Assembly (NCBI GenBank): GCA_013389115.1 | Contig: JACADY010000061.1 | Span: 62,001 to 126,000 of the forward strand | Reading direction: 5' to 3' | From: Alphaproteobacteria bacterium | GTDB lineage: Bacteria; Pseudomonadota; Alphaproteobacteria; Micropepsales; Micropepsaceae | Length of the DNA: 64,000 bases | Shown here: positions 6,249 through 50,615 of the stretch, piece after piece | Layout: every line of letters starts with the position of its first letter | Numbering within the stretch: the stretch's first letter is position 1 | Translations under genes and position numbers: made by a program | Notes under the pieces: model-generated | The model's database searches: none | Seen by the model: the letters and a program-made list of their open reading frames with translations, nothing else | What the model was told of the DNA's origin: nothing

Positions 6249-7304
6249 TCAGGTTGGATAGGCGCCAGTGAGAACGAGATAGCCCGCCGTCACCACGACC
6301 CAAACGAGCGTTGTCGGCAGAAAGACCTTCCAACCCAGCCGCATGAGCTGGTCATAGCGATAGCGCGGCACGATGGCCTTGGTGAGTGCGAAGATGCAGA
6401 AGATCAGCCAGACCTTGATCATGAACCAAATCGCGCCTGGCACGGCATTCAAGGGAAAGATGTCGAGCGGCGGCAGCCAACCGCCCAGGAACAGGGTCGT
6501 GAACATCGCGCACATGAGAACGATGCTTACATATTACCCGATCATGTAGAGCAGGAACGGCGTCGAGGAATATTCGACCATATAGCCGGCGACGAGCTCC
6601 GATTCGGCCTCAGGCAGGTCGAAGGGGGGGCGGTTCGTTTCAGCGTGGGCGGAAATCAGGAATATGACCGCCATCGGAAAGAGCAGCGTGAAGAGGTTCC
6701 AGCCGTGCTCGCCCTGCTGACGCACGATCTCCGACAGATTCAGCGATCCCGCCCAGAGCAGCACCGTGATCAGCACGAACCCGATCGAGACCTCGTAGGA
6801 CACCATCTGCGCCGCCGTGCGCATGGCGCCAAGAAAGGGATATTTCGAGTTCGATGCCCATCCGCCCATGATGATGCCGTAGACGCCGAGCGAAGAGATG
6901 GCGAAAAGATAGAGAATACCGACATTGATGTTGGAGACGACCCAGCCCTCGGACACGGGAATGACCGCCCAGGCCGATAGCGCGAGGGTCAGTGTGACGA
7001 TAGGCGCCAGCAGGAAGATGAACTTGTTCGCGCTAGCCGGAACAACCGGCTCCTTCACGATATACTTCAGAAAGTCGGCGAAGGACTGGAGCAAACCGAA
7101 GGCACCGACGACATTCGGTCCCTTGCGCAATTGCACCGAGGCCCAGATCTTGCGATCCGCCAGCAGGATGAAGGCCAGATTCACAAGCAGGGTGAGGACG
7201 AGGAGGAGGATGCCCGTCAGAACGCCCAGCACCCAGGAAAGCTCATAGGGAACCTCCCCGAACAATGCGGTGAGCGCCCAGTTCCAGAAATCAATCAAGA
7301 CCAT
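6249..7304 (-). pseudogene. nuoH: NADH-quinone oxidoreductase subunit H, interrupted by one in-frame TAA
   Basis: NuoH forms the quinone chamber at the joint of the two arms of complex I. From the ATG at 7304 the frame encodes 256 aa of typical NuoH, including [21 protein letters not shown]. It then meets TAA at 6534-6536 and continues in the same frame for 94 aa to the normal C-terminus at 6249. Full length with read-through would be about 351 aa, normal for the family. Family members read G-E-Y here (A-E-Y in mitochondrial ND1), so the stop replaces a conserved glutamate codon, consistent with GAA to TAA. Both halves look otherwise intact. A sequencing or assembly error, a very recent nonsense mutation, or read-through are all possible. 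An ATG at 6515 could start a separate C-terminal fragment but has a weak ribosome binding site. Confidence 0.9.
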
Positions 7305-38468: not shown

Positions 38469-39716
38469 ATGTCAAAGCTCGATTTCCTCTCCTTGATGGC
38501 GGCGCGCCGCGCCTTGCACCAATGCACCGATGCTGCGGCGCTGCTCGATCTTTTCGGCAAGGAGACGGTCGTCGGCTATATCGGCTTTGATTGCACGGCC
38601 CCCAGCCTCCATGTCGGGCATATGATGCAGATCATGTCGCTGCGCCGGCTGCAGCAGTCGGGCGGCAAGCCCATCGTCGTCATGGGCGGGGTCACGACCA
38701 AGGTCGGCGATCCCTCTTTCCGCGACGAAGCGCGGCCGCTTCTGACGGACGCGATGATCGAGGCGAACAAGCAAAGCATCAAGCGCGTCTTTGAGAACTA
38801 TCTCACCTTCGGCGAGGGCCGGACGGACGCCATCATGGTCGACAACGCCGAATGGCTGGACGAACAGCGCTATGTGCCGTTCCTGCGCGATATCGGACGG
38901 CATTTCTCGGTCAACGCCATGATCAAGATGGATAGCGTGCGTATGCGCCTCGAGCGCGAGCAGTCGCTCTCGTTCCTTGAGTTCAACTACATGCTGCTGC
39001 AATCGTTCGATTTCGTCGAACTCTACCGGCGCTATGGCTGCCGGCTGCAGCTGGGCGGCTCCGACCAGTGGGGCAACATCGTCAGCGGCATCGATCTTGG
39101 CCGGCGCACGGACAATGCCGAGCTTTACGGCGTGACCTCGCCGCTCATCACGACCGCCTCTGGCGCCAAGATGGGCAAAACGGCCAAGGGCGCGGTCTGG
39201 CTGAACGCCGATCAATTGTCGCCTTACGATTTCTGGCAGTACTGGCGCAACACCGAGGATGCCGATGTCGGCCGGTTCCTGCGCATCTTCACGGATCTGC
39301 CGGAAGAGGAGATCGCGCGGCTCGAAGTGCTCGAGGGCGCCGAACTGAACGAGGCAAAAAAGGTGCTGGCGACCGAGGCGACGGCGCTCTGTCACGGGCG
39401 GGCGGCGGCGGAGGCCTCGGCCGAGACCGCGCGCAAAACCTTCGAGGAAGGCGTGGCGGCGGCCGATTTGCCCAGCATCACCGTTCCTCTTGCTCAACTC
39501 GAGCAAGGCTTCGGCGTCGCGCAGGCCGCTGTCGCGGCCGGCCTTACCAAATCGACGAGCGAAGCGCGCAGGATGATCGAGAATCGCGGCATCTCCCTCA
39601 ACGATGCGGTGGTCGAGGATGTAAAGGCGATGCTGACGGTGGCCGATCTGCGGGATGGCGCGATCAAGATCTCGGCCGGAAAAAAGAAGCACGTGCTGAT
39701 CCGGCCGCGGGATTGA
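38469..39716 (+). CDS. tyrS: Tyrosyl-tRNA synthetase
   Basis: Class I aminoacyl-tRNA synthetase of 415 aa. The HIGH-type motif reads [10 protein letters not shown] near residue 47 and the KMSKS-type motif reads AKMGKTAKG near residue 235. [11 protein letters not shown] is the tyrosine/tRNA signature, and a C-terminal S4 RNA-binding domain covers [19 protein letters not shown]. No Shine-Dalgarno sequence is visible and the gap to anmK is 52 bp, so the leader may be very short. Confidence 0.96.
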
Positions 39717-39719
39717 CCC

Positions 39720-42700
39720 TCAAGGCGTCGCGGAACGGCTGCGATCGTTGGTACTGGCGCTGGGGCTGTCGCTATATTCGAAGATGCGCCGGAAAATGCC
39801 GGGCGCGATCGCGGAAAGCGGGTTGACCGAGATTCTCAGATCATCGGACGAGCCTCTGACCGCATAGGTCATGCCAAGAATGCCCTCGCCCTCGCGCGAG
39901 GTGAGGATGTCGCCGATCAGGGGAATGCCATCGAGGATCGAGTTGATGCCATAGATGGGCACCAAGGTCCCCACGATGTTGATGCCGCCATTGGCGCCAA
40001 GCGATCCTTCCGCCGTCAAGCCGATCGAAGGGCCGCTCGCCTTCGCATCCTCGATGCTCCAGCGCTCATCCTTGCGGCTGAAGGGCACATCCAGGCGGTC
40101 AAAGGCGATGCCCTCGCCACGCAGAAGATCGGAAATGCCGACCAGCGATCCGGCGGCAAACAGCCGGGCAAGAAAGGGCTGATCGACGATGCGGAATTTG
40201 TCGACGCGCAGCTTTCCCGATGCGGTCGCGGTGCTGGTCTTGCCCGCATCGAGCGAGGCGGTGAGGTTGAGATTTCCGCCCTTCATGCTTTCAAAGCCTG
40301 TAATGCCCTCGACAAGCTCTCCGGCATTGGCGGTCTCAACCGCCATTTCCCGCCGGCCGCTCTTCTGTCTGATGGCGATGCTGGCCGCTCCGCCGCGGGA
40401 AAGGGCGCCGGTCAGAACAAGCTCCGCAAGCTCCCCGCTTTCGTGGCGGGAGCGCAAGCGGACACCCGTCATGGCGGCGGTCCCGCGCAGGTAGAGCTGA
40501 TCGAGGCTGCCGTCGAGCGTGAGGGGCGTCGCCGCGCTTGCCTCTTCGGCGGGTGTCGCGGGCGCTTTGGACTCATCCCCGCCGTCTTCTTCGCCATCGG
40601 CGAACATTTTGGCAATCGCGCCCGACAGATCGGCGCTCCTGCCGGCAAAGGTGATGAGAAAGCCGTTGTCACGGCGCGCAACGGCGGCGCGGAAGTCGTT
40701 GCGCGCGCCCAGATTGACGAGCGGGAATTCGGCCGCCGTCAGGCTTCCCTCGGCGTCGAAGTCGAGGTCGCCGGACACGGCGAGCTTGCGCCCTGAAATC
40801 TCAAGATCATCGATGCGGTCGAGCCGGCCCTTCGCGTCCAGTCGGAACGAGAAACGCGCGGCGGCGGCCTCGCCCTCACTCTTCGACCAGGAGAGCGGCG
40901 TGAAGGAGAGTGTCGTTTGCGTCAGATCGAGCGTCACCTTGCCCGTCTCAACTTCACCTCCCCTGCCCCTCAGATCCGCCTTGAGGCCGATAGGTCCTGT
41001 CACATTGTCCATGTGCGGGAAGCCGATGCTGGCGCGCTGCGCATCATCGAGGGTCGCGGCGATCGTGACGTTGCTTGAGGGTTTGCTGCCTGCATCGAAA
41101 CGCTCAATCCATTTCAGATCGAGGGGGATGTCCTTCATCGTCACGGGACCCTTTGCCTCAAGCCGGGTGCCATCGATGGCAAAGTCAAGCGCGCCCTTCG
41201 AAAGTACGAGCCCGTCGCCCAGATCAAGGCCCAGGCCGTTCGTCTTCGCCGCGATGTCGAACGCGATTTCCGAAACAGGAAGGTCCTTCTTCAAGGGCAG
41301 AGTGAGATCGAGCGAGAGCGAAGCGGTTCCCGCGGCGTCCTCCGGCTTGATGCCAAAGCGGCTCGCATAGCCAAGCGGCTGCATGTCGATGAGGGCGAGG
41401 ATGTCCTTGACCTCACCTTCGGCCTTCGCCTTGAAGTTGCCCGGTCCATAGTCGATGTGAAAATCATCGATCAGGATCGCGCCGCCCGTCAGGCGGAGAC
41501 TGCCCACCTTGCCGGATTCGAGATCGGCCTCGAAGCGATCGCCATAGAGCGTCGCGCTGCCCTTTGCTTCTGTGATGTGCGTCAGACCGCTGAGGAAGTT
41601 CGCCTCCAGACCCTCAAAGGAAAAATCGAGACGCAGCATCTCGTCGGGCAGAAACTCGCCGTCCATGGCCCCAACAGGGAGATCAGCCTTGAGCACGCCT
41701 TTGGTGATGAGGCCGGTGCTCAAATTGGCGTCGATCCAGTCGCGCGCGCCAGCGCCCATACCCTTTGGCCAATAGGCCGCGAGGTCCCGCACCTTGAGGG
41801 CGCTCAACTGGCCCTCAAGGGCAAGCGCGGGGGATGCGTCGGGCCTGTCTTGCGCATAGGCGAGACGGCCCTTCAGGCTCATCTCGAAATCACCAGCGCG
41901 CAGGGAAGCATTCTCGATGTCGAGCGAATTCTCAGACCCATCGTACCCGCCGCGAAAGCCAATGCGGTCGAGGCTGAGTTTTTGCGAGAATAGGCCCGGA
42001 AGGTTCACCGTCACGGCATCGCCCGTCATGCCGCCCCAAATGCCGGAAATCGAACCGCTGCTTGTGTAGGTGAGATTGGCCTGACCGGAGAAAGAGCCCG
42101 ACAGGCCCTCAGCCCTCAAGGTCAGCTGTTCGATGAGCACGCTTTGGCTGGGGCCGTCATAGGTCATCGCCAGTTCGGCGGAATCGACAGCGATGCCGTC
42201 GGGGCCGGCCGGCGACACCACGATGCTTCCCTTGCCCAGCGAGACCCAGGCCGTGAGCGCGCTCAGTTCTCCCCGGCGCGTGAGCTCGGCCGTCAGCGTC
42301 CCTTAGCCGGGCACATTGATCCCGTCAAAGAAGCCGAGGAGGCGGGTGGATTGCGCGAGCCGGGAGAGGACGATCTCAGGAAAGCTCAGCTCCAGATGGA
42401 TGCCTTCGCTGCCCTGCTTGTAGAGGCCGCGCGCGGAAACCGGCCATATCTCGCCGTTGATATCGAGCCCCGCGTCCACAAGGGCGCTCACGCCCGCCCC
42501 GTCACGCGACAGCGACAAGGACGCGGAGGGCGCGGTCAACTTCGAGCCCGTCTCGGCATCCCTCAGCGTCAGCGATGCGTTCTTGACGCCCACATAGGCG
42601 AGGTAGGTCGAGGTATCGGCGGGATCAGGCGGCAGGAGCATATCGGCCAGGAGGGCTTCAACAACGCGCGGATCGCTCGGACTGGCCGCGCCTTCGCTCT

Positions 42701-48750: not shown

Positions 48751-49524
48751 ATGCGGCCATTGCCGCGGGAAACGACCTTGCACCTTGAGGTACGGGACTT
48801 GTCATCCTCTAAGACCCAGACGATGCGCGCGCGGCGACCAGCGCCATCCTCGACTGAGGCGAAGCGGCGCTATCATCATGGCGATCTGCGCGCGGCGCTC
48901 ATCGCCGAGGCGCTGTCGATCGCGGCAACGGAGGGGATCGAGAAGGTCAGCGTGCGCGAGGTTGCGCGGCGCGCCGGGGTTTCTCCTGGCGCGCCATTCC
49001 GGCATTTCGCAGACAAGACCGCGCTCATGACCGCCGTCGCTGAGGAAGCGATGGACCGGTTCCGGGCGGAAATCGATGCCGCGCTTGCCAAGGCCGATGC
49101 CGATGATCCGATCGCCGGTTTCAGGGCTGTCGGCCGCGCCTTCTTGTCATGGGCCATGCGCAATCCCACGCATTTCGCGATCATCTCCTCGCGGCAGGCG
49201 ATCGATTTTCCAGGCTCGCAGCGGCTCGTGAACCAAAACACTGCCATCCAGGAGCTGGTCGACCATCTGCTGCAAAAGGCGCTTTCCGCGGGCCGGCTGC
49301 GCAGCGGCGATACGCGGCTCGTCCAACTGGCGGGCCGTGCGCTCGTCTATGGGCTTGCGCGCATGTTCACGGACGGGCATTTCGAGAGCTGGCACGTGCC
49401 GGCCACCGAAGTCGAGACGCGCATGGAAGCGGTGCTCGACCTCGTCGTCGAAAGCCTCGCGAAGCCACCTTCCGACGCAACGACTAATCCAAATCCGCGA
49501 CCGCGGTCTCGGCGCCGCCCTTGA
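48751..49524 (+). CDS. TetR/AcrR-family transcriptional regulator
   Basis: Up to 257 aa. The N-terminal helix-turn-helix reads [49 protein letters not shown]. The remainder is a helical ligand-binding domain of the type with WHG-like C-terminus ([26 protein letters not shown]). The start is uncertain: ATG 48751 is the first in frame, while ATG 48823 would remove a non-conserved leader. It is divergent from the ferric-reductase-like gene, its probable target. Its 3' end overlaps the prfB 3' end by 41 bp. Confidence 0.86.
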
Positions 49525-50615
49525 GGCGCTGAGAAAGCGCGGCGGCCATAAAGGCATCGAGATCGCCGTCGAGCACATCCTGGGGCGAGAAATTCTCGAC
49601 CCCCGTGCGGAGATCCTTCACGAGCTGATAGGGCTGCAAGACATAGGAACGGATCTGATGGCCCCAGCCGATATCCGTCTTCTGCGCGTTCTGCGCATCG
49701 GTGGCGGCTTCGCGCTTTTCCAGCTCCAGCTCATAAAGCCGCGCGCGCAGCATGCCCCAGGCCGTCGAGCGGTTCTTGTGCTGGGAGCGATCGTTCTGGC
49801 ATTGCACGACAATGCCTGTTGCAAGATGCGTGATGCGCACGGCGGACTCGGTCTTGTTGACGTGCTGACCACCCGCGCCGCTTGCCCTATAGACGTCGAT
49901 GCGGACGTCCTTTTCCTGCACGTCGATCTCGATCGAGTCATCGACGACGGGATAGACCCAGACCGAGGCAAAGCTGGTGTGGCGGCGCGCGTTCGAATCA
50001 TAGGGCGAGATGCGCACCAGACGGTGCACGCCCGATTCCGTCTTCAGCCAACCATAGGCGTTCTCGCCACGCACAAGGATCGTCGCCGATTTGATGCCTG
50101 CTTCCTCGCCCGCGCTCTCCTCGATCAGCTCCCATTTGTGCCCGCGCGCCTCGGCCCAGCGCGTGTACATGCGCAGCAACATCGAGGCCCAATCCTGCGC
50201 CTCGGTACCGCCCGCGCCCGCGTGGATTTCAAGATAGGTGTCGTTGCCGTCGGCTTCGCCTGAGAGCAGCGATTGCAGTTCGGCGTCTTGAGCGCGCTTC
50301 GCGGCGTCGCGCAAAGCCGCCTCGGCTTCCTTCAAGAGATCGGCATCGCCCTCGGCCTCGGCAAGCTCGATCATCTCGCGCGCGTCATTGGCGTCGCGCT
50401 CAAGCGCCTGATAGCTGGATATGGCGGCATCGAGGCGATTGCGCTCGCGCATCAGTTTCTGCGCGGCTAAGGGATCGTTCCAGAGGGTCGGGTCTTCAGC
50501 CTTCGCGTTCAATTCCGCGAGGCGCTTCTGGGCCGTATCCCAGTCAAAGAGACCTCCTGAGCAGTCTCAGCGACTGCTCGATGGCGTTGGCATAGTCCTG
50601 CATTTCGGTGCGCAT
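49484..50615 (-). CDS. prfB: Peptide chain release factor 2 with programmed +1 frameshift
   Basis: RF2 recognises UGA and UAA. The ATG at 50615 opens a 23-codon frame ending ...LLRRSL, then CTT TGA C at 50544-50546. An AGGAGG Shine-Dalgarno-like element lies just upstream of the shift codon. This is the classic autoregulatory site: slow termination at UGA shifts the ribosome +1 into GAC. Reading on gives [18 protein letters not shown] and a 376-aa protein. The main frame has [19 protein letters not shown] and the GGQ motif in [19 protein letters not shown]. Confidence 0.96.

Follow-up and report, generated by a model that had tools for sequence, protein, structure and literature searches.

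Does the TAA that cuts through a long YhdP-like frame exist in the cell or in the file, and, if in the cell, does it silence the gene, divide it or get read through? The frame runs from 43187 to 39720 on the minus strand of the window (the whole stretch of 64,000 nucleotides analysed here), and translation confirms what the first-pass annotation had read there: codon 295 is TAA (42305-42303, within GTG CCC GGC TAA GGG ACG CTG), preceded by 294 open codons and followed by 860 more up to the terminal stop. Judged from the assembled sequence, the TAA would be a single-base error in the consensus of an otherwise ordinary, intact YhdP/AsmA-like gene, a reading to which we give about three chances in four. 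The features on which this argument draws are listed in Table 1.

Table 1. In-frame stops and associated features (window positions, or locus and position in the draft genome G000 where a locus handle is given).
Feature	Position	Strand	Basis or remark
In-frame TAA, YhdP/DUF3971-family gene	42303..42305	-	translation; stop absent here from relatives
N-terminal part, 294 codons	42306..43187	-	translation; weak DUF748 match; 41% identity to G001
Remaining C-terminal part, 860 codons	39720..42302	-	PF13116 YhdP, 110 bits (cut-off 46)
tyrS (tyrosine--tRNA ligase), convergent neighbour	38469..39716	+	tyrS also adjoins the gene in relative L020
prfB (release factor 2), intact	49484..50512	-	intact frame; TAA/TGA termination machinery present
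TAA, nuoH (the window's other in-frame TAA)	6534..6536	-	one profile position replaced (between 246 and 248 of NF004745); relatives Glu
TAA, beta-ketoacyl synthase	L135:12847		coding-signal screen
TAG, NAD-glutamate dehydrogenase (NAD-GDH)	L036:11592		coding-signal screen
TAG, thyA	L041:19369		profile skips exactly one position
TAG, recF	L043:6678		coding-signal screen
TAG, panC	L048:10331		coding-signal screen
TAG, hisG and RND-type protein	L101:4959 and 12755		coding-signal screen
TAG, coaBC	L103:3807		profile skips exactly one position
TAG, polyprenyl diphosphate synthase	L124:8368		coding-signal screen
TAG, glutathione transferase (GST)	L131:10179		coding-signal screen
TAG, thiC	L138:2838		profile skips exactly one position
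TAG, flavodoxin-like protein	L034		coding signal; among the three weakest cases
TAG, ATPase-like protein	L047		coding signal; among the three weakest cases
TAG, small conserved protein	L117		coding signal and G001 homologue; among the three weakest cases

On coding signal and conservation, the two halves of the frame are one gene and not two adjacent genes, because the signal is as strong after the TAA as before it (log-likelihood of 15.0 for the 60 codons before it and 13.8 after it, without a competing frame) and the identity to the closest other copy is the same in both halves (41%). This copy, from a genome of the same genus (G001), is 41-42% identical, with 109 of 266 residues matching before the stop and 349 of 850 after it. 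Read across the TAA, the frame has 1,155 codons as against a median of 1,158 in relatives, which agrees with the earlier statement that the two parts add up to normal family length; the claim that the gene holds no other lesions stands as well. Its placement in the AsmA/DUF3971 family is upheld by the match of the downstream part to PF13116 (YhdP, formerly DUF3971), which scores well above the gathering threshold and covers residues 71-603 of that part, and membership is further indicated by the full length and by the N-terminal membrane anchor, a signal-anchor-like hydrophobic stretch at about residues 33-60. A search of PDB sequences with the 860-codon part gave no match. The gene is, on these scores, an alphaproteobacterial relative of YhdP and not an E. 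coli-type equivalog, because the corresponding model (TIGR02099) gives 27 bits for the downstream part where 519 are needed.

Homologues were found in 35 of the 41 genomes of the same class that were searched, and in the best-aligned copies the frame is undivided, at about 1,040-1,180 codons. An alignment scan of named genomes added 80 loci, most of them from alphaproteobacterial MAGs without a classification, while those with a name include Micropepsaceae/Rhizomicrobium and Parvibaculum; a first single-protein scan of the named genomes had returned no relative, and plasmid records no match. Full-length frames make up 101 of the 104 that are uncut. Among the 109 homologous loci, 100 align across the site of codon 295, and none of these 100 has a stop there or is split there into two genes, an arrangement that the first-pass annotation had held would speak against its reading. 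The same annotation had proposed to learn the expected amino acid from such an alignment. The relatives do span the site without a stop, but the residues they have there differ and are for the most part polar (Ser 19, Asp 18, Asn 9, Thr 9, Lys 7, Phe 7, Gln 6, Ala 6, and others), so that no single residue can be expected. Nothing in these alignments points to a stop that is conserved, to a division of the gene or to an event programmed at the site.

Three of the relatives deserve separate mention. One MAG copy has an in-frame TAG elsewhere in the gene, at query position 646 (L262), and another (L288) has what is likely a frameshift around query position 590-603. In the relative G006, an open frame beyond the gene (L020:3991-4469, plus strand) carries repeats, degenerate and about 18-22 residues long (RPRLEGRTADNPQTLLILRSGR...), which are probably a DNA repeat array lying between the YhdP-family gene and tyrS.

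The first-pass annotation had called this TAA the second in its stretch, rightly, as nuoH in the same window is interrupted by another. Such stops extend well beyond the window, which belongs to a draft genome (G000) whose 83 contigs add up to 2.79 Mb at 88% completeness. Stops with strong coding signal on both sides were sought in 989 kb of it, and pairs of neighbouring genes were removed by inspection; we retained 16 stops, each the single interruption of a frame that is intact apart from it: 13 TAG, 3 TAA and no TGA (about 2-3 TGA expected from codon usage; p about 0.05-0.09). The codon-score candidates rejected on inspection include uppP, surE-pcm and accB-accC, which are neighbouring-gene pairs with a gene starting right after the stop. 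The density of the retained stops, about one per 62 kb, is close to that of the window (2 per 64 kb), and roughly 45 false stops would be expected in the whole genome. They are spread from about 10% to 82% of the length of the proteins, with no clustering towards the C-terminus. A reciprocal comparison with G001, in which counts were judged by eye rather than automatically and wrong-frame ORF alignments were discarded, gave 11 stops inside genes for G000, over about 104k aligned codons, and none for G001 over 103k (Fisher p about 0.001), and no convincing frameshift in either genome. The stops are confined to G000, strike unrelated genes and are absent from this close control, as befits errors.

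Some of the genes struck are ones a cell can hardly do without. Both coaBC and nuoH occur in G000 in one copy, the copy bearing the stop, and thyX, which could substitute for a broken thyA, was looked for in the 88% complete genome and not found. As written, the cell would be without CoA synthesis, thymidylate synthesis and a complete complex I, and could hardly live; at 88% completeness a second copy of one such gene could be missing from the assembly, but hardly second copies of all of them. It is because similar stops hit many unrelated and indispensable genes of one genome, without convincing frameshifts, that we place the error in the assembly. Any implication of read-through or of special interest attached to the TAA in the YhdP-family gene fares badly against this background.

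What kind of error may be involved is indicated by the residues lost. Where relatives agree, the residue is Glu (nuoH, 4 of 4; thiC, 3 of 3; the RND-type protein, 5 of 5 close homologues); it is Ser in three of four relatives of NAD-GDH, and relatives of the polyprenyl synthase have Glu, Glu, Asn and Asp at its stop. Glu and Ser codons are above all those from which G:C to T:A changes make stops, and at none of the 16 stops do relatives have an invariant Gln or Trp, the expected targets of transitions. The residues found at the stops of thyA (Asp) and coaBC (Ala, Leu or Asp) are not one such step from TAG. Where a stretch shares at least 85% identity with G001, radical amino-acid changes are skewed in the same direction, 18 being of the G:C to T:A kind against 4 of the reverse (p about 0.004; 16 against 4 without two stops, p about 0.012), a signature that is suggestive, given that it rests on few sites and on genomes of unequal G+C (62.3% in G000, 65.8% in G001). 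The tRNA genes have no clear excess of such changes, the bases compared being too few to expect any.

These observations would fit a process of substitutions only, writing isolated false stops into the consensus of G000. The changes are probably mostly G:C to T:A, judging from the lost residues, as would be left by guanine oxidised in the library DNA; oxidised guanine is known from human data to give rise to G to T artefacts (PMC12390751). Errors of this sort would show through where read coverage is thin, and the same process would also yield missense errors, matching the skew among radical changes. That the mistake lies in the file and not in the cell is our inference, as is the oxidative cause. 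The YhdP-family gene would then have no further lesions because the density of errors is low, not because of any special tolerance.

The explanation that survives best beside consensus error is a real and recent nonsense mutation, perhaps in a mutator lineage with faulty repair of oxidised guanine, leaving a young pseudogene that makes an anchored N-terminal stump only. The single lesion between two equally conserved halves would suit such an event, and the repair gene mutY is truncated by a contig end (G000 contig 43, bases 3-545, L140), so that its N-terminal part, missing from the contig, is uncheckable; against it, the repair gene mutM/fpg is intact. An essential function in the lipid homeostasis of the E. 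coli outer membrane is shared by YhdP, TamB and YdbH, each of which is enough by itself for growth, YhdP being dispensable if TamB or YdbH is present (PMC8593681). In G000, however, no TamB match was found that could act as a substitute, and there is just one other AsmA-like gene, shorter, on contig 60 and under the YhdP cut-off, because of which loss of the gene is probably not harmless; this too favours an error. A nonsense mutation would moreover leave unexplained the like lesions in coaBC, nuoH, thyA and polyprenyl diphosphate synthase of one viable genome, and real decay brings several kinds of lesion, frameshifts among them, and spares indispensable genes, whereas single stops were all that was found and coaBC and nuoH are among the genes struck. 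We therefore consider a real mutation unlikely, if still the most serious competitor of an error.

Far less probable is that the TAA divides the frame into two working genes, of which the second would start anew at GTG 42221. This in-frame GTG, about 28 codons past the stop, does have a purine-rich, Shine-Dalgarno-like AAGGGAAG motif a few bases before it (42219-42233, minus strand), which is probably there by chance; the downstream product would be without the membrane anchor, a promoter-like site was looked for in the region and not found, the 100 relatives aligned across the site are undivided there, and many single-domain enzymes of G000 are interrupted in like manner.

Suppression or recoding of TAA and TAG, by a suppressor tRNA or a reassigned code, would give a full-length protein, and is about as improbable. 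The restriction of the 16 stops to TAA and TAG is what an ochre suppressor would allow, indispensable genes are hit, and the share of conserved genes ended by TAG is 24% in G000 as against 42% in G001. At these conserved gene ends, TGA makes up the shortfall of TAG relative to the same-genus genome. Three marks of recoding were sought and none was found: 1) the codons have not fallen out of use, since TAA ends 28 and TAG 43 of 179 genes whose C-terminus is conserved with G001 (71/179), with no excess of back-up tandem stops after them; 2) the residues lost are not one consistent amino acid but Glu, Ser or variable ones; 3) prfB is intact, and so is prfA with its PAT and GGQ motifs, and none of the 38 tRNAs has a TTA, CTA or TCA anticodon, although an unassembled tRNA is conceivable in a genome 88% complete. 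Suppression would also leave the skewed missense changes unexplained. Least probable of all is that the stops are real and served by an ochre-type suppressor tRNA within the unassembled 12%, TAA and TAG being leaky in dozens of essential genes while still terminating others.

A consensus error at this locus would have consequences beyond it. One draft genome may contain false stops by the dozen in the genes that are best conserved, mimicking pseudogenes or recoding, and pseudogene or presence/absence calls from the G000 assembly need care. A genome-wide search for similar stops, combined with a sister genome and attention to indispensable genes, can decide much in such cases even before reads are consulted. 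The genome would be remarkable if the stops proved real, as it would have to tolerate them in genes for CoA, thymidylate and respiration.

Among known systems, the gene resembles the YhdP family (PF13116, AsmA-like clan) in its profile match and in a total length like that of its relatives, and differs from E. coli-type YhdP in a TIGR02099 score far under the cut-off as well as in the one TAA that its frame bears. Stop codons are recoded elsewhere, TAG as Gln in some phages and TGA as Trp or Gly in some bacteria. The present case is like these in having in-frame stops within conserved genes; unlike them, it has the same codons ending many genes, intact release factors, no suppressor tRNA among those found and lost residues that differ. 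A third likeness is to the false stops of draft and metagenome-assembled genomes, including oxidised-guanine artefacts (PMC12390751). While the latter are usually proven by strand asymmetry and depth of reads, and the case made here is drawn from the assembly, the likeness extends to isolated single-base stops across numerous conserved genes of one genome that are unrelated to each other, to the lack of convincing frameshifts, to Glu and Ser codons being those struck, and to radical missense changes skewed likewise.
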